A stretch of DNA of 44,659 nucleotides from Burkholderiales bacterium. GTDB lineage: Bacteria; Pseudomonadota; Gammaproteobacteria; Burkholderiales; Burkholderiaceae_C. The notes beneath the pieces are model-generated. The model saw only the letters and a list, made by a program, of their open reading frames with translations. It made no database searches and was not told the origin of the DNA. This document shows positions 6,121 to 32,060 of the stretch, one piece after another. Each line of letters opens with the position of its first letter. Position 1 is the first letter of the stretch. The DNA lies in assembly GCA_016191995.1 (NCBI GenBank), contig JACPVA010000008.1:1-44659 (forward strand), read 5' to 3'. A program made the translations under genes and the position numbers.

Positions 6121-6142
6121 GCGCGCCGCGGGTCGGGCGGCC

Positions 6143-7864: not shown

Positions 7865-7937
7865 GGCTCGTCTCCTGTCGTTCGTTCGTCGTTCGTCGGC
7901 GCCCGCGGCGCGCGCCGCGGACGTGCCAGTCCGTGCT

Positions 7938-9311
7938 TCAGCGCTCGCTGACCGAGCGCAGGTTGTCGGCGGTGTAGTACTCGGGGCTGAAGCGCGCGCC
8001 CTCGGGCTGCGTCATCCAGCGCACGTCGGCGCCGGTGCCGGCGGCGTGCATGTCGAACAGGTAGCGCCCTTCGGTCAGGTTGTGCTGCACGAAGGCCGAG
8101 ACGTCGCAGCTGCCGGTCTCGAAGACCGGGATCAGGAAGCCCTCGCGCACCTTGGCGAGCTTGCCCTGGGCGTCGTAGTCCTCGGCCAGCAGCAGCCCCC
8201 AGCTGTCCTCGTCGAGGTAGAAGGTGCGCTTCGGCGCGGTGTGGCGCATGCCCGCCTTGACGGTGGCCTCGACGACCCAGACCCGGTGCAGCTCGTAGCG
8301 GCGTGCGCTCGGGTCGATGAAGTCGGCCTTGGCGATGTCCTCCCACTTGCGGTCGAAGGCATAGGCGCCGAAGGCGTTGTACGGCACGATCAGCTCCTTC
8401 TTGCCGACCAGCTTCCAGTCGAAGCGGTCGATCGTGCCGTTGAAGACGAAAGGCTCGTCCAGCGTGTACTGGTTCTCCATCCCGATCTGCGGCGAGTCGT
8501 ACGAATACGACGGCATGCGCCGCACCCGGCGCTGGCCCGGGAAGTAGTAGAAGGTCTCGCTGCCCGGCTGGTTCAGGTAGAAGGCGATCGCCAGCGCCTG
8601 CCCCGCGAGCGCAGTCGGCGAGTTGTAGGCGAAATAGGCGTAGTACTCGACCTGCGGCAGCGTCGACAGCTTGGTCGAGCCCTTGGCGCCCCAGGGCATG
8701 AAGGCGGTGAACTCCTGCCCGGCGCGGATCCAGGTGCTGCCGCCCTTGCGCGGCGCCACCGAGGTGACGGTATTCTTGTAGTCGATGCCGACGCCGCGAT
8801 AGCGCATCTTGGCGTTCCACATCGCCTCGGTGCCGCTCGCCGGCATCGGGAACGGGTAACCCGGCACCCAGGCCTCGGCGAGGCTCCAGCCGTCGGCGCC
8901 GATCTTGGCCAATCCGACGTTTTTCTTCGTGTTGTCGGCGACGAAGTCCGGCACGCCGCAGCTGCGCCGCGACGGATACACATCCATCCGGTAGCCCTTG
9001 ACCTGCTCGACGATCGCGCGCTGCCCCGGCGCCAGCCTGGCCGCGTGCTGCGCGAGGTTGCCGGCGTCGATGCTGAACAGCGGCTTGTCGCCCTGGTGCT
9101 TCCAGTGCGCGCCGCGGAACTTGCCGAAGCTCCAGCCGCTTTGCTGCGGCTCGTTGCCGCCCCAGGCCGGGATGCTGCCGTCGGCGTTGCCGGCCTTCTC
9201 GGCGCCCGAGGGCGTCAGGTCGGCGCCCAGGCGCGCGGCGTCGGCGGCGAAGGCGGAGCTGGCCAGCGCGGCGACGGCCAGTGCGACGATCGTGGGGGCG
9301 AGGCGGTGCAT
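7938..9311 (-). CDS. DUF1329 family periplasmic protein, LolA-like
   Basis: This 457-residue protein starts at an ATG preceded by AGGAGA and has a clear signal peptide (hydrophobic core at residues 5-18, cleavage after AFA near residue 22). The mature N-terminus ARLGADLTPSGAEKAGN, followed by GSIPAWGG, is the signature of DUF1329, often annotated as an outer-membrane lipoprotein-sorting (LolA/LolB-fold) protein. No lipobox cysteine is present, so it is predicted to be soluble in the periplasm. It is the first gene of the operon DUF1329-DUF1302-RND-YCF48. The upstream region carries a 20-bp sequence nearly identical to two sites beside the MarR gene at 19169, so expression is probably tied to that regulator. 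Confidence 0.88.
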   Translation of the reverse strand: MHRLAPTIVALAVAALASSAFAADAARLGADLTPSGAEKAGNADGSIPAWGGNEPQQSGWSFGKFRGAHWKHQGDKPLFSIDAGNLAQHAARLAPGQRAIVEQVKGYRMDVYPSRRSCGVPDFVADNTKKNVGLAKIGADGWSLAEAWVPGYPFPMPASGTEAMWNAKMRYRGVGIDYKNTVTSVAPRKGGSTWIRAGQEFTAFMPWGAKGSTKLSTLPQVEYYAYFAYNSPTALAGQALAIAFYLNQPGSETFYYFPGQRRVRRMPSYSYDSPQIGMENQYTLDEPFVFNGTIDRFDWKLVGKKELIVPYNAFGAYAFDRKWEDIAKADFIDPSARRYELHRVWVVEATVKAGMRHTAPKRTFYLDEDSWGLLLAEDYDAQGKLAKVREGFLIPVFETGSCDVSAFVQHNLTEGRYLFDMHAAGTGADVRWMTQPEGARFSPEYYTADNLRSVSER

Positions 9312-9510: not shown

Positions 9511-10941
9511 TCATTTCTTGATGCTGATCACCTGCGGCTGCGTCACCGCCTTGAGCCCGTCGACGCCGAACTCGACCCCCCAGCCCGATCCCTTGGTGCC
9601 GCCGAACGGCACCATCGGGTGGATCATCCCGTGCTGGTTGATCCAGACCGTGCCGGCCTGGATGCGCGACGCCACCTCGCGCGCGCGCTGCAGGTCGGTC
9701 GACCAGACCGACGCCCCGAGACCGACGTCGAGCCGGTTCGCGCGCGCCACGGCGTCGTCGACATCGCGGTAGCGGATCACCGGCAGCACCGGGCCGAACT
9801 GCTCCTCGTCGACCAGCGGCGCGCCGTCGTCGATCCCGGTGACGATCGTCAGCGGGTAGAAGTTGCCGGGGCCGTCGGCCGGCCGGCCGCCGCAGACGAT
9901 GGTGGCGCCGTCGGCACGCGCGCGCTCGACCAGGCGCGAGACCTTGTCGAACTGCATGCGGTTCTGGATCGGGCCCATCACGGTGCCGTCCTGCATGCCG
10001 TCACCCATCGGCATCGCCTCGGCCAGCCCCTTCAGCTCGGCGACGACGGCGTCGTGCAGGCTGTCGGGCACATACAGCCGCTTGGCGCAGGCGCAGGTCT
10101 GCCCCATGTTGAGGAAGGCGCCCCAGAACAGGCCCATCGCGATCGCCTTCGGGTCGGCGTCGGGCAGCACGATCGCGGCATCGTTGCCGCCCAGCTCCAT
10201 CGTCGTCGGTGTCAGGTTCTTGGCCGCCGCGGCGGCGATCTTCGCGCCGGTGGCCCCGGATCCGGTGAACATGATCTTGTCGACGCGCGGGTCCTCGACC
10301 AGCCGCGCGCCGACCTCGCCCGGCCCGCTGACGGTGTTGAGCACGCCCGGCGGCAGCACCTCGGCGATCAGCCGCACCATCTCGAGCGTGCCGATGCTGG
10401 TGTACTCCGACGGCTTGATGACGACCGTGTTGCCGGCGCGCAGCGACGGCACGATCTGCCAGATCGCGATCAGCAGCGGCCAGTTCCACGGCGCGATCGC
10501 CGCGATCACGCCGTAGGGCTTGCGGTGCACCTCGTCGCGCCGCGTCTCGTCCTCGAACGCGAGGTCGACCGGCAGGTCCAGGCTCGCCGGCACCTGGGTC
10601 CAGACCTCGCAGCCCCAGGCCTCGAAGCGCGCGCCCGGCACCTGGTCCGGCCCGACGCCGCCGAGCGGCTTGCCCTGCTCGCGCGTGACCCAGGTCGCCA
10701 GCGTCTCGGCGTTGGCCTTGATCGCCTCGGCGACCTTCATCATCAGCGCCTTGCGCTCGGCGTCGGGGCGCGCGGCCCAGGCCGGCTGCGCCGCCTTCGC
10801 CGTCGCGACCGCCTGCGCGACCTGCTCGGGGGTCGAGTGCGGGACCAGCCCGAGCACCTCGCCGGTGGCGGGGTTGCGCGACTCGAACGTGCGGTCGGAC
10901 ACGACGGCGCGGCCGTCGACGGTATTGGCGTAGGTCTTCAT
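9511..10941 (-). CDS. NAD(P)-dependent aldehyde dehydrogenase
   Basis: This 476-residue class I/II-like aldehyde dehydrogenase oxidises an aldehyde to its acid with NAD(P)+ in the cytoplasm. The visible signatures are the cofactor-binding APWNWPL segment, the glycine motif FTGSGATG, general base Glu249 in MELGGND, and the catalytic Cys283 in GQTCAC. The MKTYANTV start is chosen because GGAGA lies at the right distance and the coding matches the usual length; the frame stays open upstream but that extension is not protein-like. It is transcribed divergently from a LuxR-type regulator across a 284-base spacer. The closest functional types are aldehyde or succinate-semialdehyde dehydrogenases. 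The substrate is undetermined. Confidence 0.93.
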   Translation of the reverse strand: MKTYANTVDGRAVVSDRTFESRNPATGEVLGLVPHSTPEQVAQAVATAKAAQPAWAARPDAERKALMMKVAEAIKANAETLATWVTREQGKPLGGVGPDQVPGARFEAWGCEVWTQVPASLDLPVDLAFEDETRRDEVHRKPYGVIAAIAPWNWPLLIAIWQIVPSLRAGNTVVIKPSEYTSIGTLEMVRLIAEVLPPGVLNTVSGPGEVGARLVEDPRVDKIMFTGSGATGAKIAAAAAKNLTPTTMELGGNDAAIVLPDADPKAIAMGLFWGAFLNMGQTCACAKRLYVPDSLHDAVVAELKGLAEAMPMGDGMQDGTVMGPIQNRMQFDKVSRLVERARADGATIVCGGRPADGPGNFYPLTIVTGIDDGAPLVDEEQFGPVLPVIRYRDVDDAVARANRLDVGLGASVWSTDLQRAREVASRIQAGTVWINQHGMIHPMVPFGGTKGSGWGVEFGVDGLKAVTQPQVISIKK

Positions 10942-11043
10942 CGGGGTCTCCTGGGCGGTGGTCGGGTCGATGCGCGCGCGCCATGTCGTCGCGGTACGCA
11001 CACAGCGGCGCGAGTCTGGCGGCGGCGGCGCCGGCGTTCCATC

Positions 11044-13981: not shown

Positions 13982-13985
13982 GGCC

Positions 13986-16851: not shown

Positions 16852-17582
16852 CGCCACTCCTCGCACGGCAGAGCGAGCCGCGCCGCGACCGCCGCCACGT
16901 TGCCGGGCACGTCGCGCAGGTCGAAGAACTGCACCTGCATGCCGGCGTCGACCGCGCCGGCGATATTGCGGAACTGGTCGTCGACGAACAGGATCTGCGC
17001 CGCCGGCAGCGCCAGCCGCTCGGCCGCCAGCGCATAGGCGCGCGGATCCGGCTTGAGGATTCCGGTGTGCGTCGCGTCGACGACCGCGTCCAGCCCGCGC
17101 AGCACGTCCATGCGTTCGAGGAAGGCGGTGCCGTAGAACAGCTCGAGCTCGTTGGACAGGATCCCGACGCGCAGCCCGGCGGCGCGTGCCGCGCCGATCA
17201 GCCGCGCCACCAGCGGCCGCACGGTGTGCACGGGGTCGGTGTGGCGAACCCGCGCCAGCATCGCCCGCGTATCCCAGCCACGCTCGCCGACCGCCTCGCC
17301 GACCTCGCGCGCCCGGATCGCCCAGTAGTCGCGCTCGCTGATCTCCTGGCGCAGCATCGACTGCCACAGCGGGTCGTTCGACGGGTCCAGCGGGCCGAGC
17401 CAGGTCAGCGTGCCGCGCGGCAGGCGCAGGAGCTGCTCGGTCTGGCGGTGGCACTCGAACAGCGAGACGCTGATCACGGCGCCGAAGTCGAGCAGCAGGC
17501 CGCGCACGGGGGTGCGCAGCGACGGCGCCGCCTCCGCGCCCGCGGCGGCGGCACGGCGGGCCTGCACGTCCTCGAACCTCAT
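16848..17582 (-). CDS. HAD superfamily hydrolase
   Basis: This 244-residue protein of the haloacid dehalogenase superfamily (subfamily IA-like) shows motif I LLLDFGAVIS with the nucleophile Asp, motif II ILSNE, motif III Lys in ILKPDPRAYALA, and motif IV FVDDQFRN. A helical cap lies between motifs I and II. As in YihX-type members, the second aspartate of motif I is replaced by glycine. It overlaps both the upstream aldehyde dehydrogenase (ATGA) and the downstream aminotransferase (ATGA), so translation of the three is probably coupled. Phosphatase activity is likely for the family; the substrate and its place in the pathway are unknown. Confidence 0.85.
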   Translation of the reverse strand: MRFEDVQARRAAAAGAEAAPSLRTPVRGLLLDFGAVISVSLFECHRQTEQLLRLPRGTLTWLGPLDPSNDPLWQSMLRQEISERDYWAIRAREVGEAVGERGWDTRAMLARVRHTDPVHTVRPLVARLIGAARAAGLRVGILSNELELFYGTAFLERMDVLRGLDAVVDATHTGILKPDPRAYALAAERLALPAAQILFVDDQFRNIAGAVDAGMQVQFFDLRDVPGNVAAVAARLALPCEEWR

Positions 17583-19051
17583 GCCGCCACGCTCACGAGC
17601 TTGAGCTCGGTGCAGCCGAGCAGGCCCTCGAGCCCGCTCTCGTGGCCGATGCCGCTGGCCTTGACGCCGCCGAACGGCGTCTCCGGCTGCGACACGCCGA
17701 AGTGGTTGATCCCGACCATCCCTGCCTCCAGGCCCTCGGCCAGCCTGTGCGCCGCCCGAAGGTCGTTCGTGAAGCCGTACGCCGCGAGGCCGTAGGGCAG
17801 TGCATTGGCGCGTGCGATCGCATCGTCCAGCTCGTCGAAGAGGTCGAGGACCGCGATCGGGCCGAACGGCTCCTCGCGCTGCACGCGCGCCGCCGGCGGC
17901 ACGCCCTCCAGCACCGTCGGCGGGTAGAAGAAGCCCGGGCGGCCCAGCCGCCGCCCGCCGCAGGCCACGCGCCCGCCGTGCGCGATCGCGTCGTCGACGA
18001 AGTCCTGCATCTCGTGCACGCGGTGTGCGGCGACCAGCGGCCCCATCTGCGTCGCCGGGTCCATCCCGGGACCGACGCGAAGCGCCTCGGCGCCGGCGAC
18101 GAAGGCGTCGCGGAAGGCCGCGTAGCGCGAGCGATGGACGAGGAAGCGGATCGGCGACGCGCAGACCTGCCCCGCGTTGCGGTACTTGGCCACCACCGAC
18201 ATCGCCGCGATCGCCTCGGCGTCGGCGTCGGCGCAGACGATCACCGGCGCATGGCCGCCGAGCTCGGCCGTGTAACGCTTGCCGTGCCGCGCCGCCAGCT
18301 CGCCGAGCTGGCGCCCGACCGCGACCGACCCGGTGAACGAGACCTTGGCGATACGCGCGTCGGGAACCAGCGCCGACGAGATCGCCGCCGGGTCGCCAGC
18401 GATGAGATTCAGCACGCCGTCGGGCAGGCCGGCGTCGACGAAGCAGCGCACCAGCTCGACCGCCGCCGACGGCGTGCGCTCGTCGGGCTTGAGGACGACG
18501 CTGCAGCCCGCGGCCAGCGCGCCACCGAGCTTGCGCGCCGGCAGGTTGCACGGGAAGTTCCACGGCGTGAACGCCGCCACCGGCCCGACCGGCACCCGCA
18601 TCACGGTCTGGCTCGCCACGCCCGGCGTGCGCGGCGGGACGCCGCGGGCGGCGAGCCGCTTGGCCTCCTCTGCGAGGAAGTCGATGATCTCGGCCGACAG
18701 CCGCACCTCGCGCTCGGCCTCCGCCAGCGGCTTGCCCTGCTCGCGCGTCAGCCGCGCGGCGATCGCGCCGGCGCGATCGCGCAGCAAGGCGGTGGCGCGC
18801 GTGATCAGCGCGTGACGCTCGACCGGCAGCCGCCGGCGCCAGGCCTCGAAACCCTCGGCTGCGGCCGCCGCCGCGGCGTCGATCTCGGCCGGGCCGGCGG
18901 CCGGCAGCGCACCGACCGTCTCGCCGCTGGCCGGGTCGACGAGCGGGCGCGTGCCGGCGGAGGTCGCGTCGATCCAGCGTGCGCCGATGCGCAGCGCCGG
19001 GGCGGGATCGACCGTCGTGGCCCGCGGGTCGGAGGCGGGAGATCGTTTCAT
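17579..19051 (-). CDS. Aldehyde dehydrogenase, succinate-semialdehyde type
   Basis: This 490-residue NAD(P)-dependent aldehyde dehydrogenase is similar to GabD-type enzymes: AFTPWNFPCNLPARK, FTGSVAVGRQL, AELGGHAPVIV with the general base, and catalytic Cys297 in GQVCASPIRF. It heads an operon with HAD hydrolase, aminotransferase, permease and UPF0261 genes, so the semialdehyde made by the aminotransferase is the likely substrate. The only plausible ATG (19051) lies inside a putative MarR operator and directly below a -10-like CATAAT at 19065-19060, with no Shine-Dalgarno, so the mRNA may be leaderless. A TTG at 19057 is the other possible start; no other methionine occurs before residue 150. 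Confidence 0.92.
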   Translation of the reverse strand: MKRSPASDPRATTVDPAPALRIGARWIDATSAGTRPLVDPASGETVGALPAAGPAEIDAAAAAAAEGFEAWRRRLPVERHALITRATALLRDRAGAIAARLTREQGKPLAEAEREVRLSAEIIDFLAEEAKRLAARGVPPRTPGVASQTVMRVPVGPVAAFTPWNFPCNLPARKLGGALAAGCSVVLKPDERTPSAAVELVRCFVDAGLPDGVLNLIAGDPAAISSALVPDARIAKVSFTGSVAVGRQLGELAARHGKRYTAELGGHAPVIVCADADAEAIAAMSVVAKYRNAGQVCASPIRFLVHRSRYAAFRDAFVAGAEALRVGPGMDPATQMGPLVAAHRVHEMQDFVDDAIAHGGRVACGGRRLGRPGFFYPPTVLEGVPPAARVQREEPFGPIAVLDLFDELDDAIARANALPYGLAAYGFTNDLRAAHRLAEGLEAGMVGINHFGVSQPETPFGGVKASGIGHESGLEGLLGCTELKLVSVAA

Positions 19052-21522: not shown

Positions 21523-21578
21523 AGCCGGGCTCAGCCTTGCAGGCCGCGCCTGGCCAGTGGCCAGGCCCTTCGCCAGGC

Positions 21579-22025: not shown

Positions 22026-24662
22026 TCAGACGCTTCCGCGCGCCTTCAAACTCGGCCCGTCGAACCCCGCTGCATGCGCCGACGGCCCCAGCGACTCGAC
22101 CCGCCCGCGGCCGAGCTTGTAGCGGTAGTTATTGGTCAGCGGGTCCGGCACCGCGTGGCATACCGCATTGGCGTGCTGCCCCGGGTGGTTGAAGCCGGCC
22201 TTGGCGACCCCTTCGCGCATGCCGTCGTCGAGCACCGCCACCGCCTCGAACGACCCGCGCGTGACGCGGATATGCCCGGCCGCGAGCAGCGCGTCGAAGT
22301 GCTGCTCGTGGGCCTGCACGCCGAGCGGCATCCCGGTCTGCACGTAGACCGCATCGTTGCTGACGCGAACGAGGTCGCCATTGCCGATGCCGCGCGCGGC
22401 GGCGTCGCGCGGGTGGATGAACAGCATCTGCACCACCCCGCGCGCCGCGGTATAGGGCTTGCGCCGGTCGTCGAAACCGCTCTGCCAGACCTCGTCGATG
22501 CGGCCGTTGGTGATCCACAGCTCGCCCTTGTCCGCGCGCGGACGCGCGGCGGCGTAGAACTCGCTCCAGCCCGGGAAGTCCCACGGAGCCTTCAGCAGCA
22601 CGGCCTTGCCGCTGTGGGTCGCGAAGCCCTGCAGCAGCCGCGTGCGCCAGCGGTCCGCGTCGGGCAGCGCCTGGTCCGGGTCGTGCAGCCGCACGGTGCC
22701 GATCAGCCGATCGGCGGCGCGCCGCACCGGGGTCTGGATGCCGTCCGGGCCGAGCCGCCTCAAGGCCTCGTGGCCGGGCAGGCCGTCGCGCCTGGCCTGC
22801 CGCACCAGCTCGTCGTAGTCGTAGACGCCGCCGCGGCCGTGGCGCGCCGCCTCCTCGAACACCTCGCTGGCGTCGCGCCAGGCGAAGCGGTCGCCCCAGC
22901 CCATGCGGCACGCGAAGGCCTGCACCGCCTGCCAGTCCGGCCGCGCCTGCCCGGGCGGGTCGCAAAAGCGCGCGTACAGGCGCAGCCGGCGCTCGCCGTT
23001 GCAGCGCGTGAAGTCGGCCTCGCCCCAGGTCGCCGCCGGCAGCACGATGTCGGCGTAGCGCGTGCCCAGCGGCTCGACCGGGTAGATGTCGGAGTCGACC
23101 AGCACCATGCCGCCGGCATCGGCGCGCGCGATCAGCGCCTCGGCGGCATGCGCCGCGTCGGCACGCCTGGGCTGCTCGGGCCGCTCGATGGTCAGCGCGG
23201 CGATCGCGCGCTCCAGCTCGGCGGAAGCCGCCATGGCGCCGATCCAGGTCGTCCCGAAGACCCAGGCGAATCGCAGCCGGCCGTCGATCAGCCAGCGGTC
23301 GAGGTTGAGCGGCTTGCGCCGCCGGCCCGGGTACTTCTCCGGCGACAGCCAGCCCGGCATGCCGGGCGCGCCGGCCCAGCCGCGCTGGTGGCCGCCACCG
23401 CGGCCGATGACGCGCCCGGGCCGGTTGCCGGCGCCGCAGACCAGGCCCAGCGCCGCCAGCGACGCGCTGTTCATGTAGTTGTTGGACCAGTAGTTGCCCT
23501 TCTCCAGCATGAAGGACGCCTTGGGCCGCGAGCCGTCGGCGCGCGGCCGCGCGAGCAGCTCGGCCGCGCGCTCGATCAGCGCCGCATCGACGCCGGTGAT
23601 GCGCGCCGCCTGCGCCAGCGCCAGTTCCTCGCGCGCGAGCAGGAAGGCGCGGTAGTCGGCCCAGTCGCTCTGGAACAGGCCCCAGGTCGTTCGCCACTGC
23701 CAAGGTGTATCGCGTGTGCCCCGCCCCAGCCCCTGGTCGACCTCCCAGCGCCGCGCGACCCAGCGGTCGATGAAGCCCTGGTCCTGCCAACCGCGCTCGA
23801 CGATCACGCGCGCGATCGCCTGGTTCAGCACGCTGTCGGTGCCGGGGATCACCGGCAGCCACAGCCCGCCCTGCTTCAGCCCCCAGGCGACGCCGCCGCT
23901 GCGGTGCGGGGTGGCGAAGATCAGCGTCTTGCCCGGCTCGGCGCCGCGCATGATCTGGGTCGTGAACAGCGTGGCCTTGGTCTCGAAGGGGTCGGTGCCG
24001 GAGCAGAACAGGACCTCGCACGCACCCCAGTCGTCGTAGCTCGGCGCGAAGGCCTCGATCCCGGCATCGTCGAGCCCGGCGGCATCGTTCGTCGCCGCGC
24101 ACTTGTCGTGCGGTGCGAACGCCGGCGTGCCGACGGCGTCGAACGCCAGCCGCGCGATCGCGTAGGTATTCTCGAAATACTGGTACGAGTAGGCCTTGAT
24201 GCCCCAGGCGTGCTCGCCGTGGCGGCGCAGCACATGCTGCGAGACGCGCGCCATGACCTCGATCGCGTCGTCCCAGGAGACCTCGCGCAGCGTCCCCCCG
24301 ACGCGCAGCAGCGGTGTCGTCAGCCGCTCGCGCGTGCGGTTGCCCGGGTGGTGGCATTTCTGTGCCAGCGTGCCGCCGCGCATCGAGTGCCCGCCGCCGG
24401 GGTTGACGGCGCGCGCCAGCGGGTCTGGCAGCACCAGCACGTGATGCGGCCGGCCCTGCCAGGCGACGATATTGTGCTGCGCCGGGTTGGCCCAGGGTTG
24501 CTCGTCGGCGCGCGGGAGGCCCGCGCTCGCCGACTCGGCGCGCGACGGCGCACCGTCGGCCGGCCAGCGCCAGACGCGGTAGGCGCAGCCGACGACGCAG
24601 TAGTCGCACGCGGTGCCGATCTGCTCCGCGTGCGGCGGCGCCACGGGCGGGCGATCAGCCAT
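22026..24662 (-). CDS. Molybdopterin oxidoreductase, AioA/IdrA-like large subunit
   Basis: This 878-residue DMSO-reductase-family enzyme (bis-MGD) belongs to the arsenite oxidase/iodate reductase branch. Cys19, Cys22 and Cys26 (CDYCVVGC) with Ser93 of HSMRGG match the three-cysteine pattern that binds a [3Fe-4S] cluster in AioA. Other AioA-like segments are GRGGGHQRGW, NGERRLRLYARFCDPPGQ and NGRIDEVWQSGFDD. Where arsenite oxidases have the HATRE motif this protein reads CAATND, so an arsenite-contacting His appears to be lost, arguing against arsenite as substrate. It has no signal peptide and would be co-exported with the Tat-targeted Rieske partner, as in AioAB. The ATG at 24662 overlaps the Rieske gene by 8 bases. 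It is last in the amine dehydrogenase operon. Whether it reduces iodate, oxidises something else, or serves the amine dehydrogenase is open. Confidence 0.85.
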   Translation of the reverse strand: MADRPPVAPPHAEQIGTACDYCVVGCAYRVWRWPADGAPSRAESASAGLPRADEQPWANPAQHNIVAWQGRPHHVLVLPDPLARAVNPGGGHSMRGGTLAQKCHHPGNRTRERLTTPLLRVGGTLREVSWDDAIEVMARVSQHVLRRHGEHAWGIKAYSYQYFENTYAIARLAFDAVGTPAFAPHDKCAATNDAAGLDDAGIEAFAPSYDDWGACEVLFCSGTDPFETKATLFTTQIMRGAEPGKTLIFATPHRSGGVAWGLKQGGLWLPVIPGTDSVLNQAIARVIVERGWQDQGFIDRWVARRWEVDQGLGRGTRDTPWQWRTTWGLFQSDWADYRAFLLAREELALAQAARITGVDAALIERAAELLARPRADGSRPKASFMLEKGNYWSNNYMNSASLAALGLVCGAGNRPGRVIGRGGGHQRGWAGAPGMPGWLSPEKYPGRRRKPLNLDRWLIDGRLRFAWVFGTTWIGAMAASAELERAIAALTIERPEQPRRADAAHAAEALIARADAGGMVLVDSDIYPVEPLGTRYADIVLPAATWGEADFTRCNGERRLRLYARFCDPPGQARPDWQAVQAFACRMGWGDRFAWRDASEVFEEAARHGRGGVYDYDELVRQARRDGLPGHEALRRLGPDGIQTPVRRAADRLIGTVRLHDPDQALPDADRWRTRLLQGFATHSGKAVLLKAPWDFPGWSEFYAAARPRADKGELWITNGRIDEVWQSGFDDRRKPYTAARGVVQMLFIHPRDAAARGIGNGDLVRVSNDAVYVQTGMPLGVQAHEQHFDALLAAGHIRVTRGSFEAVAVLDDGMREGVAKAGFNHPGQHANAVCHAVPDPLTNNYRYKLGRGRVESLGPSAHAAGFDGPSLKARGSV

Positions 24663-25161
24663 GCGCGGCCTCGTCGCCGAAGACCAGCCCCTGGACGCCG
24701 ACCGCAAGGATCGCGTCGCCGTCGAGCTCCAGCACGATCTGCGGTAGCGCCTGCGTCGCGTGCCCGGCGAGCACGACGCCGTGGCGCGTCAGGTCGAACC
24801 GCGTCAGGTGGCGCGGGCAGGGGCCGAGCAGCTGGTTGGCGGCGTCGAACACGCCCTCCAGCGGCCCGCCGAGGTGCGTGCAGCGGGTGCTGAAGGCGAC
24901 GATGTCGCGCTGCGGCCCGACGCCGCCGCCGGCCGGCACGCCCAGCCGCACCAGCATCGCCGGCAGCCCCGGGCGCGGGTAGTCGAACCAGACCGGCGTG
25001 CCGACGCGCAGCGCGCCCAGTCGCGCGACGCTGCGGGGCGCGTGCGCCGCACGCTCGGCGCGCAGCGGCATCGGCAAGCCCGCCAGCGGCGCCAGCACGA
25101 CCAGCCGCGCGCCGGCCAGCAGCGCGTCGCGCCGGCTCAGGCACGCGCGCTCAGCGTCCAT
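24655..25161 (-). CDS. Rieske [2Fe-2S] small subunit, Tat-exported
   Basis: This 168-residue protein opens with a twin-arginine signal (LSRRDALLAGARLVVLAPLA, residues 8-27) that would also serve as membrane anchor or be cleaved. Ligands of the Rieske cluster are Cys94/His96 (CTHLGG) and Cys115/His118 (CPRH). The disulfide cysteines present in high-potential Rieske proteins (CTHxGC and CPCH) are Gly99 and Arg117 here, which suggests a lower redox potential. It is the expected partner of the molybdopterin subunit that overlaps it downstream, in the same order as aioBA. It overlaps the preceding dihaem gene by 11 bases. Confidence 0.88.
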   Translation of the reverse strand: MDAERACLSRRDALLAGARLVVLAPLAGLPMPLRAERAAHAPRSVARLGALRVGTPVWFDYPRPGLPAMLVRLGVPAGGGVGPQRDIVAFSTRCTHLGGPLEGVFDAANQLLGPCPRHLTRFDLTRHGVVLAGHATQALPQIVLELDGDAILAVGVQGLVFGDEAAHG

Positions 25162-26284
25162 CGTGCGCTCCTGCCGCAGGCAGCGGCCGCGTCGGCGGCA
25201 GCTCGGGGGCGGGCATGGCAGGCAGTTCGTCCATGCTCAGGCTCTCCAGGAAGGCGACGAGGTCGCGCTTGTCGTCGTCGCTCAGCCCCAGCGGCTGCAG
25301 CCACGCCGGCCTGGCGGCCGCGTCGCCGCCGCCGCGGTCGAAGAAGTCGATCACCTCGCGCAGCGTCGCGAAGGCGCCGTTGTGCATGTAGGGCGCGGTG
25401 TGGCGCAGCTCGCGCAGCGACGGCGTGCGGAACTTGCCGCGGTCGCGCGGGTCGCGTGTCAGGTATTCCAGCCCGAGGTCATCGTCGCCCGACGCGTACT
25501 GCTCGCGCGACACGCCGCGCTGCAGGTTCTGCCAGCGCGCGGTCACCTGCAGCAGCACATGCGCGTCGGCCTGCGGCAGCCGCGGCACGCCGAGCGCGTG
25601 GAAGCGCTGGTCGGAAAACAGCGGCCCTTCGTGGCAGCGGATGCAGCCGGCCTTGCCGCTGAAGAGCGCCCAGCCGCGCTGCGCCGCCGGGCTCAGCGCA
25701 TCGCGGTCGCCGGCCACCCAGCGGTCGAACGGCACCCGCGCCGGGTCCGACACCAGTGTGCGCTCGAAGGCCGCGATCGCCTGCCACGCGTGCGTCAGGC
25801 GCGGCCACTCGGTGCCGAAGACCGCGCGGAAGCGCCGCACGTACTCGGGGACGAAGCGCAGCCGCATCTCCATCATCGCCGGGTTGCCGTTGCCGGCCAC
25901 CGCGCCGGTGGCCGCCGACTCCGCCTGCGCCTCCAGGCTGCCGACGGCGCCGTCCCAGAACAGCCGCTCGTAGTGCGCGGCGTTCCAGACCGTCTGCGAG
26001 TTGCGCCAGTGGATCGTGCCGGGGTAGCCGCGCGAGACAGGGCTGCGCTCGCCCATGCCGAGCGCCGGCAGGTGGCACGAGGCACACGAGGTGGACCCGT
26101 TGCCCGACAGCCGCGGGTCCCAGAACAGCAGCCGGCCGAGTTCGACCTTGGCCGCGCTGCCCGGGTTGTCGGCCGGGGCGACGACCGGCGGCAGCGGGCC
26201 GGGCGGTGCCGCCGGCGCCTGGGCCCGCGCGGCGCCCAGACCGAACAGCACCGCGCCGACCGCAAGCGCGACGCACGCCCTCAC
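25151..26284 (-). CDS. Dihaem cytochrome c peroxidase / MauG family protein 1
   Basis: This 377-residue periplasmic protein has a signal peptide ending near ARA (residue 21) and two c-haem sites, Cys67-Cys70-His71 (CASCH) and Cys214-Cys217-His218 (CIRCH). The GKFRTPSLRELRHTAPYMHN segment is the conserved region of the CcpA/MauG family that contributes to the second haem pocket. It starts with GTG overlapping the previous stop (GTGA). In iodate reductase clusters two such proteins (IdrP1, IdrP2) are proposed to remove peroxide; in methylamine dehydrogenase clusters MauG completes the TTQ cofactor. Both fit the neighbours here. I cannot separate peroxidase from MauG on sequence alone. Confidence 0.85.
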   Translation of the reverse strand: MRACVALAVGAVLFGLGAARAQAPAAPPGPLPPVVAPADNPGSAAKVELGRLLFWDPRLSGNGSTSCASCHLPALGMGERSPVSRGYPGTIHWRNSQTVWNAAHYERLFWDGAVGSLEAQAESAATGAVAGNGNPAMMEMRLRFVPEYVRRFRAVFGTEWPRLTHAWQAIAAFERTLVSDPARVPFDRWVAGDRDALSPAAQRGWALFSGKAGCIRCHEGPLFSDQRFHALGVPRLPQADAHVLLQVTARWQNLQRGVSREQYASGDDDLGLEYLTRDPRDRGKFRTPSLRELRHTAPYMHNGAFATLREVIDFFDRGGGDAAARPAWLQPLGLSDDDKRDLVAFLESLSMDELPAMPAPELPPTRPLPAAGAHDGR

Positions 26285-27375
26285 CGGCGCCCCCTGGGCA
26301 GCGCCGCATAGTCCTGCGGCAAGGCCTGCGGGTAGGCCGGCAGCGGCGGCGACAGCGCACGCAGCAGCGCCAGCAGCGCCGCGCGCTCGCGGGCTTCGAG
26401 CGCGACCGGCGCCAGCTCGCTGCCGGCACCGCCTCCGCGCAGGTGGAAGTCGAGCACCTCCTCCAGCGTCGCCAGCGACCCGTCGTGCAGGTAGGGGGCC
26501 GTGTGCGTCAGCATGCGCAACGACGGCGTGACGAAACGCCCGCGGTCGGCTTCGACCTTGCTCACCACGTAGCCGCCCAGGTCCTCGCGCTCGTCCATGT
26601 AGCCCGGCACGCCCATCGTCGCGTGATGACGCAGCAGCGTGATCATGCGCAGCGCATCGCGGGACACCGCCGGCGACGCGGGCACGCCGAGCCGGTGCGC
26701 GCGACCGTCGCTGCCCAGCGGCCCGTGGTGGCAGCGCGCGCAACCGGCCTTGCCGTGGAACAGCGCGAGCCCTTCGCGCAGCGCCGGCGGCAGCGCGACG
26801 CGCTCGCCGCGCAGGTGGCGGTCGACCGGCGTGTCGGGTGCGTCGAGCGTGCGCAGATACTCGGCGATGGCCGCGAACAGGCGCGGCCCGTAGGGCTCGC
26901 TGGCATCGCCGAACGCGCGCCGCCAGGCCTGCATCAGCGCCGGGATCTGGCGCACGCGCTCCTGCACGAGGCGCGCATCGGCATTCATGAAGTGCGCCTC
27001 GGTGACCATGTCGCGCACCGCGGTCGCGAGGTCGGCGCCGTCGAGCCGGCCGTCCCAGGTCAGCCGCGTCTTCAGCCGCACCGACAGCAGACCCGGCGCG
27101 TTGCGGAAATACTCGGTCCCGTTGTAGCCGCGGGACAGTGGCTGCCCGTCGGCGAATCCGCGCACCGGTTCGTGGCAGCTCGCGCAGCTGCGGCTGCCGT
27201 CGCCCGACAGCCGCGGCTCGAAGAAGAGCTGGCGGCCGAGTTCGGCCAGCGCGGCGTCGACGCGCGTTGCCGCCGGCAACGCCTGCAGCGCCGGCGGCAG
27301 CTCGGCGCGTGCCGGCGCCGCCGCCAGCAGCACGACGGCCGCGATGGCGGCCCGCGCACGCGCCGCGCGTCTCAT
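26281..27375 (-). CDS. Dihaem cytochrome c peroxidase / MauG family protein 2
   Basis: This 364-residue protein has a signal peptide (cleavage near residue 24, PARA) and two haem sites, Cys64-Cys67-His68 (CASCH) and Cys212-Cys215-His216 (CARCH). The late conserved block reads RFVTPSLRMLTHTAPYLHDG. It is a paralogue of the gene directly downstream, with the same architecture but clearly diverged, so the pair is probably old rather than a recent duplication. The ATG overlaps the stop of the monohaem cytochrome gene (ATGA). Candidate roles are TTQ maturation for the amine dehydrogenase and peroxide removal beside the molybdoenzyme. Confidence 0.85.
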   Translation of the reverse strand: MRRAARARAAIAAVVLLAAAPARAELPPALQALPAATRVDAALAELGRQLFFEPRLSGDGSRSCASCHEPVRGFADGQPLSRGYNGTEYFRNAPGLLSVRLKTRLTWDGRLDGADLATAVRDMVTEAHFMNADARLVQERVRQIPALMQAWRRAFGDASEPYGPRLFAAIAEYLRTLDAPDTPVDRHLRGERVALPPALREGLALFHGKAGCARCHHGPLGSDGRAHRLGVPASPAVSRDALRMITLLRHHATMGVPGYMDEREDLGGYVVSKVEADRGRFVTPSLRMLTHTAPYLHDGSLATLEEVLDFHLRGGGAGSELAPVALEARERAALLALLRALSPPLPAYPQALPQDYAALPRGRR

Positions 27376-27797
27376 CGGACGTAGGCCTGGCCGGTGTAGC
27401 GCACGCTCGGCGCGGCCTGCAGGATGACGTGGCAGCTCGCCTTCCAGGTGAGGATCTCGCGCCACAGCCGCGCATCCTGGTCCGCCGGCATCGGTGTGCC
27501 ATCCGCCGGAAGGTCGATGAAGAAGATCCTGCCGCCTTCGGTCTGCGCGAACTGCCCGACGCCGGGCGGCTGCGAGGGGCGATGCCCCGGCGGCGCCGAA
27601 TGGCAGCCGCGGCAGTTGAGCGCCCAGAAGGTGGCGGCCGACTGGGCCGCCAGCGCATGAGGTGGCGCTGCGATCGCCAGCCATATGGCTGGAAGCAGCA
27701 GCGCTCGCCACGGCCCGAGAGCATTGCCCGCCGCCGGCGCGCGCCGATCACGACCGCGCGGACCCTGCATGCCGCGACGGGCGCACCCCGCCGTCAT
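27372..27797 (-). CDS. Monohaem c-type cytochrome
   Basis: This 141-residue protein has a basic N-terminal tail, a hydrophobic export segment at about residues 30-50 and one haem-binding motif, Cys62-Cys65-His66 (NCRGCHS); a Met in GTPMPADQD is a possible sixth ligand. The first ATG lies two bases after the aauA stop (TGAGATG); an ATG at 27770 would give a shorter signal peptide. In Alcaligenes faecalis a small periplasmic monohaem cytochrome gene also follows aauA, so this is probably its counterpart and a candidate electron acceptor or carrier for the dehydrogenase. No azurin or amicyanin gene is present in the window. Confidence 0.8.
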   Translation of the reverse strand: MTAGCARRGMQGPRGRDRRAPAAGNALGPWRALLLPAIWLAIAAPPHALAAQSAATFWALNCRGCHSAPPGHRPSQPPGVGQFAQTEGGRIFFIDLPADGTPMPADQDARLWREILTWKASCHVILQAAPSVRYTGQAYVR

Positions 27798-27798
27798 C

Positions 27799-28344
27799 TC
27801 ACTTGCCCGGCTGGGCGATGCCGACGATCAGCGAGGTCGTGCAGTGGAACATGTTGTTGTCGTTCGCCATGCACCAGTTGACGTCGTTGTGCAGGCTGAT
27901 GCGGTAGCCCGGACGCTCGCCGAGGTTCATGTTGCACAGGCAGCGGCCGCACGAGATCTTGCCGCAGCAGTCGTTGTAGCTGATCAGGTAGTCGCGCCCG
28001 TCGGCCGGGTTGCGGCAGGTGCCGATCCAGCCGACCTTGGACGGCTCGGTGCCGGGCGGGCAGGTCGACGCGCTGCCGCCGCAGCAGCTGCACAGGAAGC
28101 CGTCGATCGCGCAGTAGCGCCAGTAGTCGCACTGCGTGTCGTCGGGCGCCTTGCCCTTGGCGGAGCCGCCGCCCCCCGCCGCGGCGTGCGCCTTGCCGCC
28201 GCTGCGGTCGAACGGCAGCACCGGCAGCGCCACCACCGAGCCCGCGAGCAGCGCCTTGCCGACGCGCGCCAGCGCGCTGCGGCGCGAGGTCGAGCACGCC
28301 ACGCGGCGCGCCGAGCGCTCGATCCAGTCGTCGAACCACTTCAT
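27799..28344 (-). CDS. aauA: Amine dehydrogenase light chain, TTQ-bearing (AauA-like)
   Basis: This 181-residue small subunit of a tryptophan tryptophylquinone amine dehydrogenase converts primary amines to aldehyde and ammonia in the periplasm. The two cofactor tryptophans are Trp106 (GWIGTC) and Trp157 (NDVNWCMAN), 51 residues apart as in known TTQ enzymes. Asp125 (SYNDCC) matches the catalytic base and Asp81 (AIDG) the aspartate needed for cofactor synthesis. A dense set of about a dozen cysteines from residue 72 on forms the family's disulfides. The leader contains SRRSAL, a Tat-like motif. Details such as GFLCSCCGG and RPGYRISLHNDVNW are closer to aromatic amine dehydrogenase than to methylamine dehydrogenase, judged from memory. 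It lies 10 bases after aauD. Confidence 0.9.
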   Translation of the reverse strand: MKWFDDWIERSARRVACSTSRRSALARVGKALLAGSVVALPVLPFDRSGGKAHAAAGGGGSAKGKAPDDTQCDYWRYCAIDGFLCSCCGGSASTCPPGTEPSKVGWIGTCRNPADGRDYLISYNDCCGKISCGRCLCNMNLGERPGYRISLHNDVNWCMANDNNMFHCTTSLIVGIAQPGK

Positions 28345-28354
28345 GGCCTAGCCC

Positions 28355-28954
28355 TCATTGACGCGCCGCGCGCGTTTCGATGAAACCCTGGACGGAGGCG
28401 ACCTCGAGCTCCTTGGCGGTGAACAGGCTCTCGAGTTGCTCGCGCGAGTTGACCAGCCCCTTCGCGCGGACGAGGCCACGCTCGTCGATCAGCACCGCAT
28501 ACGGCAGCTTGCCGACGCGAAACGCCATCCCGAGCTCGGCCGACAGCACGTAGGGGAAGCCCTGCAGCCCGGCGCGCTCGCGGAAGGCACGGTGCTCGTC
28601 GGGCTCGCCGTCGCTGGCGAAGACCAGCCTCAGCCAACGGTCCTCGTCGCGCGCGATCGACTTCAGGATCGGCAGCAGCTTCTTGCACACCGGGCAGGTC
28701 GGCGACAGGAAGAACAGCAGCTGGCTGTGCTCGGCCGGCGCGCCGACGGCGACCCCGGCGCCATCGAGCGACGCCAGCGACATCGCCGGCGCCGCCTCGC
28801 CCGGCTTGGGGCCGGTGTCGAGGATCAGCGCCCCCATCGGCGCGATGCGTTCGTACAGGATGCCGACCTGGCGCGCCAGCGCGGCCACGACGACCAGCAA
28901 TGCGATCACGACCCCCCACAGCACGATCGTCGATACCAGCAGCGCCTCGTTCAT
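28355..28954 (-). CDS. aauD: Amine dehydrogenase maturation thioredoxin-like protein (MauD/AauD)
   Basis: This 199-residue protein has an N-terminal membrane anchor (STIVLWGVVIALLVVVAALA, residues 8-27) and a periplasmic thioredoxin-like domain with the redox pair Cys87-Cys90 (SPTCPVCKK). MauD-type proteins are needed to form or isomerise the six disulfides of the light chain. The start has a perfect AGGAGGTGA Shine-Dalgarno that overlaps the end of aauE, so it is probably translated strongly. It sits between aauE and aauA, as in all mau/aau clusters. Confidence 0.9.
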   Translation of the reverse strand: MNEALLVSTIVLWGVVIALLVVVAALARQVGILYERIAPMGALILDTGPKPGEAAPAMSLASLDGAGVAVGAPAEHSQLLFFLSPTCPVCKKLLPILKSIARDEDRWLRLVFASDGEPDEHRAFRERAGLQGFPYVLSAELGMAFRVGKLPYAVLIDERGLVRAKGLVNSREQLESLFTAKELEVASVQGFIETRAARQ

Positions 28955-28958
28955 CGTC

Positions 28959-29507
28959 TCACCTCCTGAGCCCGGACAGCCGCGGCGCATTCGCCAGCAG
29001 CTGGTTGCCCGCCGCGTAGAGCAGGTACAGGCCGACCGTGCCGGTGGCCACCGTCAGCGCGTCGAGCCAGACCAGCTCGCGCGCCGGCGCCAGCGTGCCC
29101 GCACCCAGCGCGAGCCCGGCCAGCAGAGCATTGTGCGCGACCAGCAGCCATGACAAGTGCTGCCGCCCCTCCGGGCCGCCGCAACCGCAGTCGATGTGGG
29201 TACGCCCGCGCAACAGGTTGACGACGACCGCGCCGGTCACGACCGCGAGCAGCGCGATCGCCGCCGCTGCGCCCCACGGCCGCGACGCCACCGGCAGCAG
29301 CAGCAAGCCGGCCACCAACTCGGCGAGCGGCAGCAGCCACGCCATCGGCGCCACCAGCGGCTCCGGCAGCAGCCGGTACTGCGCCAGCGCGCCGGCGAAA
29401 CCGTCGCGGTCGGCGAGCTTGTGCCCCGCGCCGACCAGCAGCACGACGGCCAGCGTCGCCGCGGCGATATGCGCGAGGATCGGGTCCAGCGGCGGCAGCG
29501 CGGCCAT
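28959..29507 (-). CDS. aauE: Amine dehydrogenase maturation membrane protein (MauE/AauE)
   Basis: This 182-residue inner-membrane protein has four to five hydrophobic segments, beginning with ILAHIAAATLAVVLLVGAGH, and the HIDCGCGG motif typical of the MauE/DoxX-like family. It is required in methylamine-oxidising bacteria for production of the light chain, possibly by passing reducing equivalents to MauD. Its ATG overlaps the aauB stop (ATGA), indicating coupling to the heavy chain gene. Confidence 0.88.
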   Translation of the reverse strand: MAALPPLDPILAHIAAATLAVVLLVGAGHKLADRDGFAGALAQYRLLPEPLVAPMAWLLPLAELVAGLLLLPVASRPWGAAAAIALLAVVTGAVVVNLLRGRTHIDCGCGGPEGRQHLSWLLVAHNALLAGLALGAGTLAPARELVWLDALTVATGTVGLYLLYAAGNQLLANAPRLSGLRR

Positions 29508-30673
29508 CAGTGCAGTTCCAGCATCGTCGCCGACTCGGCCACGCCCTCGATGCGGCCGACGAAGCGAGGCTTGGCGCCGGCATCGAAGCGTGCGATCGCC
29601 ATCGCCACCGCATCGAGCCCGTACAGCGTCGGCTTCGGCGTCTGCGAGACCACCAGCGCCACCGCCATATGGCCCGGCAGCCGGGCGACGCGCTCGCGCT
29701 TGCGCAGGTCGACGACCCAGATCTCCTCGGCCGGATTCTTGTGCGAGCCTTCCGCACCGCCCTTGTGCATGCCGATGTACATCCGGTGCTGCCCGCGGTG
29801 GACGGCGAACAGCTGGTAGCCGCCCGGGCGCCAGCCGCGCCTGGCGTCGGCGGCGCCGACCAGGCTCCAGGCCGGCTCGATGCGCGCAGTCTCCTGCGAC
29901 AGGTCGACGACGTGGACCTTGCCGCGGAAGCTCACCAGCGCATGCCGGTCTCCCGCAGCGCCAGTCGCGCCGAGAAACTGCGACTGAACGAAGATCGGGT
30001 CGACGTCGGCATCGAAGAAGGGCTCGCTGCGCGTGCTCGACGCGAGCGACCCGTCGGCGGCCAGGACCATCGTCTGCAGCGTGCCGTCGCCGCAGATCGT
30101 CGAGAAGCGGTCGGCCGCCGTCTCCGACGGGATGATCGCCCAGCAACCGGGGTTGGGGATCTCGGCGGCGAACTTGCGCGCCTTCAGGTCGACCACCGTG
30201 ACCGAGGTCGCCGGCGTCACGTTCTGCACGAACAGCCAGCGCCCGTCGACCGAGCTGCGAACCAGCCCCTCGTACGGCAGGGCCTGCGCGCGCCGCGGCG
30301 GAATCGGGATCTCGGCCACCAGGTCCAGCGTCGTCGGGTCGTGGATCTCGACCACATCGCTGCGCGCGCCGCGCGACAGCCGCGCGTAGTAGCTCGTCGT
30401 GACATAGAGCTCCTTGCGGTCGCGCGACAGCACCGACTGCCCGGCGTAGCCGGTCGCGAACTGGCCCAGGTAGCGCCCGCTCGCGCCGTCGAGGACGTGC
30501 AGCCGGTTGTCGACGATATGCTGGATCGTGATATCCGAGACATACAGCCGGTGCTCGTCGGGAGGCGGCAGCTTGGCCACCGCCAGTGCCTCGGTGGCGA
30601 GCTGCGCCGCCGCCGGCGCGGCAAGACACCAGGCGGCGGCGACAGCAACCAGGATGCTCGGCATGCGACTCAC
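29507..30673 (-). CDS. aauB: Amine dehydrogenase heavy chain (AauB-like)
   Basis: This 388-residue subunit has a signal peptide (SILVAVAAAWCLAAPAAAQ) and then a seven-bladed beta-propeller with methylamine/aromatic amine dehydrogenase heavy-chain features: HRLYVSDITIQHIVDNRLHV, IPNPGCWAIIPS, CGDGTL and QHRMYIGMHKGGAEGSHKN. It forms the alpha2beta2 enzyme with the light chain. The GTG at 30673 is chosen as start because AGGAGA lies six bases before it; the ATG at 30664 would be too far from that site. It is the first gene of a nine-gene transcription unit and is divergent from the AraC-family regulator gene. Confidence 0.88.
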   Translation of the reverse strand: MSRMPSILVAVAAAWCLAAPAAAQLATEALAVAKLPPPDEHRLYVSDITIQHIVDNRLHVLDGASGRYLGQFATGYAGQSVLSRDRKELYVTTSYYARLSRGARSDVVEIHDPTTLDLVAEIPIPPRRAQALPYEGLVRSSVDGRWLFVQNVTPATSVTVVDLKARKFAAEIPNPGCWAIIPSETAADRFSTICGDGTLQTMVLAADGSLASSTRSEPFFDADVDPIFVQSQFLGATGAAGDRHALVSFRGKVHVVDLSQETARIEPAWSLVGAADARRGWRPGGYQLFAVHRGQHRMYIGMHKGGAEGSHKNPAEEIWVVDLRKRERVARLPGHMAVALVVSQTPKPTLYGLDAVAMAIARFDAGAKPRFVGRIEGVAESATMLELH

Positions 30674-30946: not shown

Positions 30947-30989
30947 CGCCGAGAATCGGCGGCTGCGATCAACCCAGGAGACTCTCGCG

Positions 30990-32060
30990 ATGCCAGCGCG
31001 CGCCGCGCTGCGGGCCCTCGAGCGCGCCGTGCGGCAGCACGGCGATGACGCTGGCTGCCCCCCGACCCGGCCGGCGCAGGTCGTCTGCCGCGAGACCCGC
31101 GATGCCGACGAGCAGGCGTCCTGCCTGCGCAACTGGGACCAGGTCTACGAGCAGCTCGCCCCGGGCGGATTCGAGGGTCGTTTCACCGAGGTCCGGCTGG
31201 GTCGCCTGCAGCTCTTCCGCGAGGTCACGAACCGGGCGCTGTACCAGGCCGGGCGCGTGCGCGAAGGCGAGCAGGTGCTCGGCGTGCCGGTGGCGATGCA
31301 AGGCGCTGGCTGCTGTGCCGGCCGTCCGCTCGGGCCCGACGGCATCGTCTCGATGCGCGGCGGCGGCACGCTGGACCTGTGCACGCCGCAGGACTTCGAC
31401 ATCGTCGCCGCCGCGATGCCGGTGGCGGCGCTGGAGCGCTACGCGAACGAGGTCGAGGACTGCGCGCCGGGCCGCGCCGGCGCGGGCTGCGCCGTCCTCG
31501 ATCTCGGCAGCGGTCCCGCGCAGGAGCTGCGAACGCTGCTGCGGACCGCGCTCGACGTCGCCCGGCTCAGGCCGTCGGCGCTGCAGATCACCGCGCTGCA
31601 CCGCACGCTCGAGCAGGCGCTGCTCGCCAGCGCGGCGCGCGTGCTGTCGCGCGCTTCCGACGACCTGCCGTCCAGGGCCCCGGCGCGCCTGCGGCACGCG
31701 CTCGTCGCCCGCGCCCGGGACTATATGCGCGCGCATGTCGACGAGCCACTGACGATCGGGGACCTGTGCCGCGCGCTGCGCGTCAGCCGCCGCACGCTGC
31801 AGTACAGCTTCCAGGACGTGCTGCAGATCAACCCCGCGAGCTACCTGCGCGCGCTGCGGCTGAACGGCGCGCGGCGCGCGCTGCGCGCGGCGCAGCCCGG
31901 CGGCGACGGCGTGCACGACATCGCCGCGCGCTGGGGCTTCTGGCATCTGAGCCGGTTCGCGAGCGACTACCGGCGCATGTTCGGCGAGCTGCCGTCGCAG
32001 ACCCTGCGCGCCGGCGGCGCGAGCCCGGACGCGGCGCGCGCCGCCGCCCGGCCTCGGTGA
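30990..32060 (+). CDS. AraC family transcriptional regulator
   Basis: This 356-residue protein has a C-terminal AraC double helix-turn-helix (about residues 240-345) with TIGDLCRALRVSRRTLQYSF, ALRLNGARRALRAAQ and IAARWGFWHLSRFASDYRRM. The N-terminal domain (SCLRNWDQVYEQLAPGGFEG, REVTNRALYQAGRV) is of the type found in EutR and in regulators of amine oxidation genes. The start has AGGAG about nine bases upstream. Its divergent position to a nine-gene amine dehydrogenase operon makes it the probable amine-responsive activator of that operon, which is inference from position and domain type. Confidence 0.87.
   Translation: MPARAALRALERAVRQHGDDAGCPPTRPAQVVCRETRDADEQASCLRNWDQVYEQLAPGGFEGRFTEVRLGRLQLFREVTNRALYQAGRVREGEQVLGVPVAMQGAGCCAGRPLGPDGIVSMRGGGTLDLCTPQDFDIVAAAMPVAALERYANEVEDCAPGRAGAGCAVLDLGSGPAQELRTLLRTALDVARLRPSALQITALHRTLEQALLASAARVLSRASDDLPSRAPARLRHALVARARDYMRAHVDEPLTIGDLCRALRVSRRTLQYSFQDVLQINPASYLRALRLNGARRALRAAQPGGDGVHDIAARWGFWHLSRFASDYRRMFGELPSQTLRAGGASPDAARAAARPR

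Follow-up and report, generated by a model that had tools for sequence, protein, structure and literature searches.

Two described systems lie close to the locus reported here. One is the aau cluster of Alcaligenes faecalis, which encodes an aromatic amine dehydrogenase (AADH) of the tryptophan tryptophylquinone (TTQ) type and whose content was reportedly set out by Chistoserdov in 2001. The other is the iodate reductase (Idr) system, idrABP1P2, of Pseudomonas sp. SCT, Denitromonas iodatirespirans IR-12 and Roseovarius azorensis. The conserved synteny of idrABP1P2 serves in the literature as a mark of the clade and as a genetic marker for iodate respiration (PMC8692401). In another study, an idrA mutant of IR-12 showed no growth with iodate, and Roseovarius azorensis and Notoacmeibacter marinus reduced iodate when tested (PMC11445184). 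Here we describe a locus in which gene sets of both kinds are joined. It lies in a window of 44,659 nucleotides (positions 1 to 44,659, forward strand, of contig JACPVA010000008.1 in the Burkholderiales bacterium assembly GCA_016191995.1), where aau genes are followed by a module for a molybdenum (Mo) enzyme. The linkage recurs in related genomes and is not due to chance. We give a probability of roughly 45% to the reading that a complete TTQ AADH operon took in a derived Idr-type module, with the module's own relative of the aau cytochromes, as a dedicated electron outlet of amine oxidation.

Nine open genes, all on the minus strand, occupy positions 30673 to 22026 of the window, as given by the coordinates of their open reading frames (Table 1). 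A sequence-only reading had described nine same-strand genes whose junctions all overlap or span no more than 10 bases, and the coordinates bear this out: from aauB to the Mo gene, the eight junctions are an overlap of 1, gaps of 4, 10 and 1, and overlaps of 4, 4, 11 and 8 bases. The family labels of that reading also agree with the family models, which return heavy and light chains of the methylamine dehydrogenase (MADH) type, MauE, MauD, two CCP_MauG proteins, arsenite_ox_S and arsenite_ox_L. The split between the two sets was corrected, because the cytochrome gene, here called cytN, is the head of the Mo module, leaving four aau genes and a five-gene module. On the minus strand, a consensus scan of positions 21500-31300, which is a weak test, showed neither promoter-like nor terminator-like sites; the plus strand has one of each.

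Named genomes were scanned, yielding 80 loci (the best 80 of 502), and a quick LG+G4 tree of Mo subunits was built with 59 rows, 58 of the 103 fetched Mo proteins plus that of the window. In this tree, which supplies the Mo phylogeny called for by the sequence-only reading, the window protein falls inside IdrA and far from the AioA-like rows (a label assigned by sequence). It belongs to a nine-row clade, hereafter N (SH-aLRT 100), which is nested in a starred group of 23 rows, Denitromonas iodatirespirans IR-12 among them; the rows of Roseovarius azorensis and Notoacmeibacter marinus are in a branch neighbouring that group. The members of N are the window and loci L049, L050, L051, L052, L053, L056, L090 and L099, and their hosts are betaproteobacteria. 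Gene content and tree together support an IdrA-type Mo part with two dihaem genes, as had been claimed, and on this placement the module is of the Idr type, nested in proteobacterial IdrA. An arsenite oxidase identity was rejected on the tree position of the Mo subunit and on the dihaem genes that adjoin it. The Mo and Rieske subunits do reach the NCBIfam arsenite oxidase cut-offs, the former barely, so that automatic annotation would probably name them arsenite oxidase.

Window residues His185, Arg421 and His425 align with residues that have roles in AioA, and are retained in the rows printed. Seven positions set N apart from the other IdrA rows; position 742 is Gly in 9/9 N rows and Trp in 24/24 others. 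The inner seven rows of N depart from the other IdrA rows at 31 positions where 23 or all of those 24 rows agree (gap columns excluded). Idr systems are expected to have a Tat signal on the Rieske subunit but not on the Mo subunit; in the window, the N-terminus of the Rieske subunit has, as judged by eye only, a twin-arginine-like SRRDALL. Among 369 genomes of the class, 14 others carry Mo subunits that are 43-61% identical to that of the window. Of these 14, 11 have the complete dihaem-dihaem-Rieske-Mo block, two are fragments of contigs and one keeps just the Rieske and Mo genes; no aau match was found in any of the 14 fetched regions.

The joining of the two gene sets is real and recurs in other genomes of clade N. 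The exact nine-gene order, which the sequence-only reading had proposed to seek elsewhere, is found in L052, an Aquabacterium metagenome-assembled genome with all nine genes; five further N genomes hold the two sets on one contig in other arrangements, and in a sixth they are split between contigs. The module comes first, with aau behind it, in L051, L053, L056 and L090. Other N loci also have a gene like the divergent AraC-family regulator of the window, either next to aau or separating it from the module (the latter in L051, L056 and L090). A whole-genome search of L049 and L050 found a single aauA 12-13 kb upstream of the module, on the same contig and strand, and the order there is aauBEDA, cytochrome, DUF1329, DUF1302, RND, TerB, YCF48, aldehyde dehydrogenase, cytN, dihaem, dihaem, Rieske and Mo. 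There are three arrangements overall, and in seven N genomes aauA and the Mo module are on one contig and one strand, within 13 kb. In G375 (L090) the sets are on different contigs, one of which ends, and another begins, inside aauB; this fits a single locus cut in two, which is unproven.

An AADH small-subunit gene is present in 8 of the 9 N genomes, compared with 12 of the 368 remaining class genomes (Fisher p 1.2e-10) and 0 of 14 class genomes with another IdrA-like Mo subunit (p 1.8e-5), values that overstate the evidence since the N members are related and the named and unnamed sets overlap. Identical coordinates were found for G457 and G369 (L049), G787 and G370 (L050), and G505 and G376 (L099), so these samples are not independent, and the aauA tallies take in weak or partial matches (G312; G567, G643). 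Among 399 genomes of the order, an aauA match occurs in 24 (two weak) and a Mo subunit at E <= 1e-60 in 6; the overlap consists of the window genome and the L049 genome, both belonging to N. No match at E <= 1e-10 to aau, cytN, DUF1329, DUF1302, RND, YCF48 or aldehyde dehydrogenase was found in the 72 other named Mo loci, 40 of which are shorter than 22 kb, with cut flanks; dh1, dh2 and Rieske are each present in 64 of these 72. The 20-kb regions of four more ordinary Mo genes in the order gave no link, with one weak aauD-like match; the two weak aauD-like (thioredoxin-type) matches near ordinary Idr genes, in L070 and L231 (30-31%, 43-44 bits), were taken as background. A linked Mo module was likewise found in 0 of 26 fetched AADH loci outside N, which come from 9 of the 12 other class genomes and 13 of the 22 other order genomes with a match; genes in the flanks were called with a home-made codon-usage caller.

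That two operons merely lie side by side by chance would be in keeping with the full nine-gene order in two genomes only, the window's and L052. We give this explanation next to no credence in view of the 8/9 against 12/368 genomes with AADH, the three arrangements with the same strand in each, and the relation of cytN to the aau cytochromes; the refuting case that the sequence-only reading had named, an order confined to this one genome, did not occur. A literature search found no published link between amine dehydrogenase and iodate, and no paper on an aromatic amine dehydrogenase gene cluster, which is weak evidence that the link is unpublished, as the search missed most subscription papers.

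Eight N loci have the 5' side of the module present (the window, L049-L053, L090 and L099; L056 is cut), and in each of them cytN is its first gene; it was not found in the 72 other Mo loci searched. It has no Pfam or NCBIfam family. In other AADH loci, a small cytochrome, cytB, follows aauA, and a second aau-side cytochrome is called cytA. Profile comparison of cytN with cytB gave 98.8% (E 1.3e-16) and a match extending past the haem motif, and that with cytA gave E 1.8e-9. The idea of cytN as an unrelated cytochrome was dropped after the comparison with cytB. A cytB hidden Markov model (HMM) finds 8/8 cytN proteins at E 5e-10 to 2e-5 (window 2.2e-5) and matches 4 of 86 other Mo loci only, each at 1.8e-4 or weaker, cytA and the six-frame open reading frames of other loci serving as controls. 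When the whole window genome was searched with cytB, cytN was the sole match at E <= 0.001, weakly (E 1.5e-4). Thus cytN is specific to the clade and a diverged relative of the aau monohaem cytochromes, and the module most probably acquired it from the stock of aau cytochromes. The window cytN also occupies the slot after aauA, the place of the aau cytochrome. To take this gene as just the aau cytochrome at its usual site would be imprecise, since cytN heads the Mo module away from aauA in L049, L050, L051, L053 and L090, and in L099 with no aauA detected. Of the links suggested in the sequence-only reading, electron exchange through the cytochrome fits best, given the kinship of cytN with the aau cytochromes.

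Another view is that an ordinary iodate reductase lies by chance in a catabolic operon and is induced and used apart from the amine pathway. In its favour, the set of four Idr genes is complete with no loss in the Mo motifs examined, and it has been argued that carriers of idrABP1P2 are likely iodate respirers (PMC8692401). Against this view stand the repeated linkage with rearrangement and two AADH lineages, the clade-specific aau-like cytochrome, and the presence of a second, ordinary IdrA-type Mo subunit in two N genomes, G373 (L082) and G376 (L055). The second subunit argues that N does something else, or acts at another time, and suggests a division of labour. We consider the ordinary reductase improbable.

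On the aau side, the window shows the aauBEDA order, and both of its subunits score higher with AADH structures than with those of MADH (large chain, 283 and 152 bits; small chain, 197 and 167 bits). The Trp and Cys residues of the aauA small subunit, presumably the TTQ tryptophans and the disulphide cysteines, are retained in the alignment to AADH structures 2i0r and 2agl. By these comparisons, the dehydrogenase is of the aromatic type and is predicted to oxidise aromatic amines. In a 31-row AADH tree (L164, L168 and L213 were left out as they had no aauB match, and the aauB of L171 is incomplete), the AADHs of N genomes form two separate four-row clades, each with 100/100 support. One common clade for the Mo-linked AADHs was rejected (approximately unbiased test, AU p 0.006), in contrast to the single clade of their Mo subunits. 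The module may have joined an AADH on two occasions, or else the AADH was swapped while the link persisted; with three arrangements and two AADH lineages, the link has been kept or remade. The aau genes occur with the DUF1329-DUF1302-RND-YCF48 set and no Mo module in five fetched loci (L160, L212, L215, L218 and L220), so the Mo module is probably the newcomer, found at three different positions in or beside that set. As a separate observation, five AADH small-subunit matches in genomes of the order (L183, L185, L195, L196 and L200) have one TGA within the match.

The two dihaem proteins differ from their Idr relatives at the position that matches Tyr294 of MauG, which was placed from equal-length match ranges to MauG. 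Both proteins have Tyr there in 59/59 other loci with two separate dihaem genes; the count before cleaning was 73/73 rows longer than 300 residues, with 2 shorter ones dropped, and the 14 removed were those in which the best matches of dh1 and dh2 overlap in one stretch. Tyrosine as a mark of Idr comes from these loci and is not a published criterion. Within N, 6/6 inner rows have Phe in dh2, where L053 and L099 retain Tyr; in dh1, His occurs in the window, L051, L052 and L090 (4/6 inner rows), and Tyr in L049, L050, L053 and L099. One study states that the axial tyrosine is conserved in MauGs, with Met or His there in peroxidases (PMC7567364). The missing tyrosine in dh1 and dh2 of the window makes TTQ maturation less likely and favours a role that is peroxidase-like or altered.

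The sequence-only reading had also suggested that the dihaem proteins are shared for TTQ synthesis, and this found no support: the window pair lacks the MauG tyrosine, and no dh1/dh2-like match at E 1e-6 was present in the 26 fetched AADH loci outside N. A fuller version makes the dihaem proteins MauG substitutes that mature TTQ, with the Mo pair as a passenger or a supplier of oxidant. Both proteins are of the CCP_MauG family and match the MauG model with scores that fall short of its cut-off, and the tyrosine is kept in some N members, as listed above; aau clusters are not known to contain mauG. This explanation has to face the Phe and His of the inner N rows against Tyr in both proteins of the 59 other loci, and the occurrence of the dihaem proteins without AADH in other Idr loci. 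We regard it as very improbable, and TTQ maturation by the dihaem proteins is disfavoured on these alignments. Two further observations concern the dihaem genes themselves. The pair is a single open frame in the deepest N members (L053:7234-9438, 734 aa; L099:2141-4372, 743 aa), that of L099 having two CCP_MauG stretches. The 59 other Idr-like loci carry the MauG-type tyrosine and not the Met or His of peroxidases, so the name 'cytochrome c peroxidases' for IdrP1/P2 may be wrong.

In the mechanism that we propose, AADH would convert periplasmic aromatic amines to aldehyde and ammonium, and its electrons would pass to small c-type cytochromes, cytN in the window, and from cytN through the Rieske subunit to the Mo subunit. 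The latter would use them to reduce an acceptor, and the descent of the enzyme points to iodate or a similar oxyanion as the likeliest one; dh1 and dh2 may remove peroxide or other reactive by-products, and the two aldehyde dehydrogenases would complete the carbon pathway. Electron direction and acceptor are the weakest steps, iodate being the default. The direction is set by analogy only, because the published model has IdrAB fed with electrons from cytochrome c551 (PMC8692401). More tentatively, the arrangement could act as a periplasmic short circuit from amine to oxyanion, in which AADH would pass electrons to a private cytochrome of aau stock and on to an Idr-type reductase, with no quinones involved, as a dedicated anaerobic or microaerobic sink. 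Our results suggest a halogen-respiration enzyme rewired to amine breakdown.

Several observations weigh against such an outlet. Odd amino-acid composition was flagged for the window, L052, L049, L050 and L045 rows of the Mo tree, and the 31 changed conserved positions and the change of Trp742 to Gly leave room for a change of substrate. The profiles of cytA and cytB match each other better (E 3.5e-24) than either matches that of cytN, and the cytB HMM ranks cytA-type proteins above cytN, so that direct copying of cytB into cytN is not required. No aauA was detected in L099 (G376), the deepest N member, which keeps cytN and the module; AADH is therefore not indispensable. In L049 and L050 the module stands directly behind aldehyde dehydrogenase 2, not aau, and in the L099 genome DUF1329-DUF1302-RND lie at one contig end, and YCF48 and the module at the end of another. 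The L099 layout would allow the catabolic set as a whole to be the partner, with the Mo enzyme perhaps oxidising one of its compounds. Groundwater is named for 2 of 8 records, and iodate may be unavailable to the hosts.

There is also an oxidative alternative, in which the Mo/Rieske pair works like arsenite oxidase on an organic or inorganic compound of the same catabolic set, and it and AADH both feed the same cytochromes. It would account for the tie of the module to the DUF/RND/YCF48/aldehyde dehydrogenase set in L049 and L050, for the proximity of YCF48 to the module in L099, where aauA went undetected, and for the divergence of the inner N Mo subunits at conserved positions. It is harder to reconcile with a Mo subunit nested within the iodate reductases and with the two dihaem genes, which are retained as in Idr and unlike Aio; the residues shared with AioA (His185, Arg421 and His425) are uninformative on direction. 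We judge it rather unlikely, and less probable than the electron outlet.

The window holds further features of note. Positions 12731-19051 (minus strand) hold aldehyde dehydrogenase, HAD hydrolase, class III aminotransferase, amino-acid permease and UPF0261 genes, and all or part of this set is also near aau in L052/L158, L154, L155 and L156. On the plus strand, positions 40062-44094 hold ferredoxin, aldehyde:ferredoxin oxidoreductase (AOR), FAD-dependent reductase and ThiS-family genes, an AOR-type cluster. Between the Mo and MarR genes, there is a 46-base direct repeat (21492-21537 and 21573-21618; 89% alike, 81 bases apart), each copy of which is centred on a near-perfect palindrome.

Table 1. 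Genes of the joined run and associated genes, in window coordinates.
Feature	Position	Strand	Evidence and remarks
aauB, AADH large (beta-propeller) subunit	29507..30673	-	GTG start 30673, in-frame ATG alternative 30664; PF06433 1.9e-46
aauE, MauE-family membrane protein	28959..29507	-	PF07291 2e-30
aauD, MauD-family thioredoxin-like protein	28355..28954	-	TIGR02661 203 bits, cut-off 188.6
aauA, AADH small TTQ-bearing subunit	27799..28344	-	PF02975 5e-53; 2i0r 197 bits
cytN, monohaem c-type cytochrome, head of Mo module	27372..27797	-	One CxxCH; match to cytB profile
dh1, dihaem MauG/CCP-family protein	26281..27375	-	His311 at MauG-Tyr position; PF03150 1.1e-36
dh2, dihaem MauG/CCP-family protein	25151..26284	-	Phe315 at MauG-Tyr position; PF03150 1.9e-41
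Rieske subunit, IdrB/AioB-like	24655..25161	-	TIGR02694 102.5 bits, cut-off 95.65
Mo catalytic subunit, IdrA clade N	22026..24662	-	TIGR02693 359.6 bits, cut-off 359.05; tree
AraC-family regulator, divergent to aau run	30990..32060	+	PF12833 5e-23
Aldehyde dehydrogenase 1	17579..19051	-	PF00171; kept in L052; associated, not proven part
Aldehyde dehydrogenase 2	9511..11001	-	PF00171; directly upstream of cytN in L049/L050; associated
DUF1329, DUF1302, RND/MMPL, YCF48-like block	2675..9311	-	Pfam; also after aau in five AADH loci without Mo module

Clade N may have implications for the use of idr genes as markers. If N is wired to amine and aldehyde metabolism while carrying all four idr genes, then the mark of iodate respiration over-calls, and if its acceptor is not iodate, N would represent a new substrate class in the Idr family and would break the rule that equates idrABP1P2 with an iodate respirer. 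The proposed outlet, if true, would link a quinone-cofactor dehydrogenase to a Mo reductase through a path of its own. Wired in this way, N would also offer a natural experiment on the roles of the Mo enzyme and its dihaem partners.

Compared with the systems described so far, the locus shares with the aau cluster of Alcaligenes faecalis the aauBEDA order and subunits nearest to AADH structures, but the slot after aauA is held by cytN and the Mo module. It resembles AioAB in its Mo and Rieske pair and in reaching the arsenite oxidase cut-offs, and differs in a Mo subunit far from the AioA-like rows and in the adjoining dihaem genes. The dihaem proteins belong to the same superfamily as MauG and MbnH, the best solved relative of dh2 being 6e1c, 'Di-heme enzyme', which we take to be MbnH; unlike MauG, neither dh1 nor dh2 has a tyrosine at the Tyr294 position. 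With Idr it has in common the two dihaem genes, Rieske and Mo in the order of L075 and L084, and a window Mo subunit nested inside IdrA. The differences from Idr are the extra cytN, the joining to AADH and aldehyde dehydrogenase genes, the change of Trp742 to Gly in the nine N rows and the loss of the MauG-type tyrosine in the inner-group dh2. Taken together, these comparisons indicate that the clade N module is a variant within Idr.

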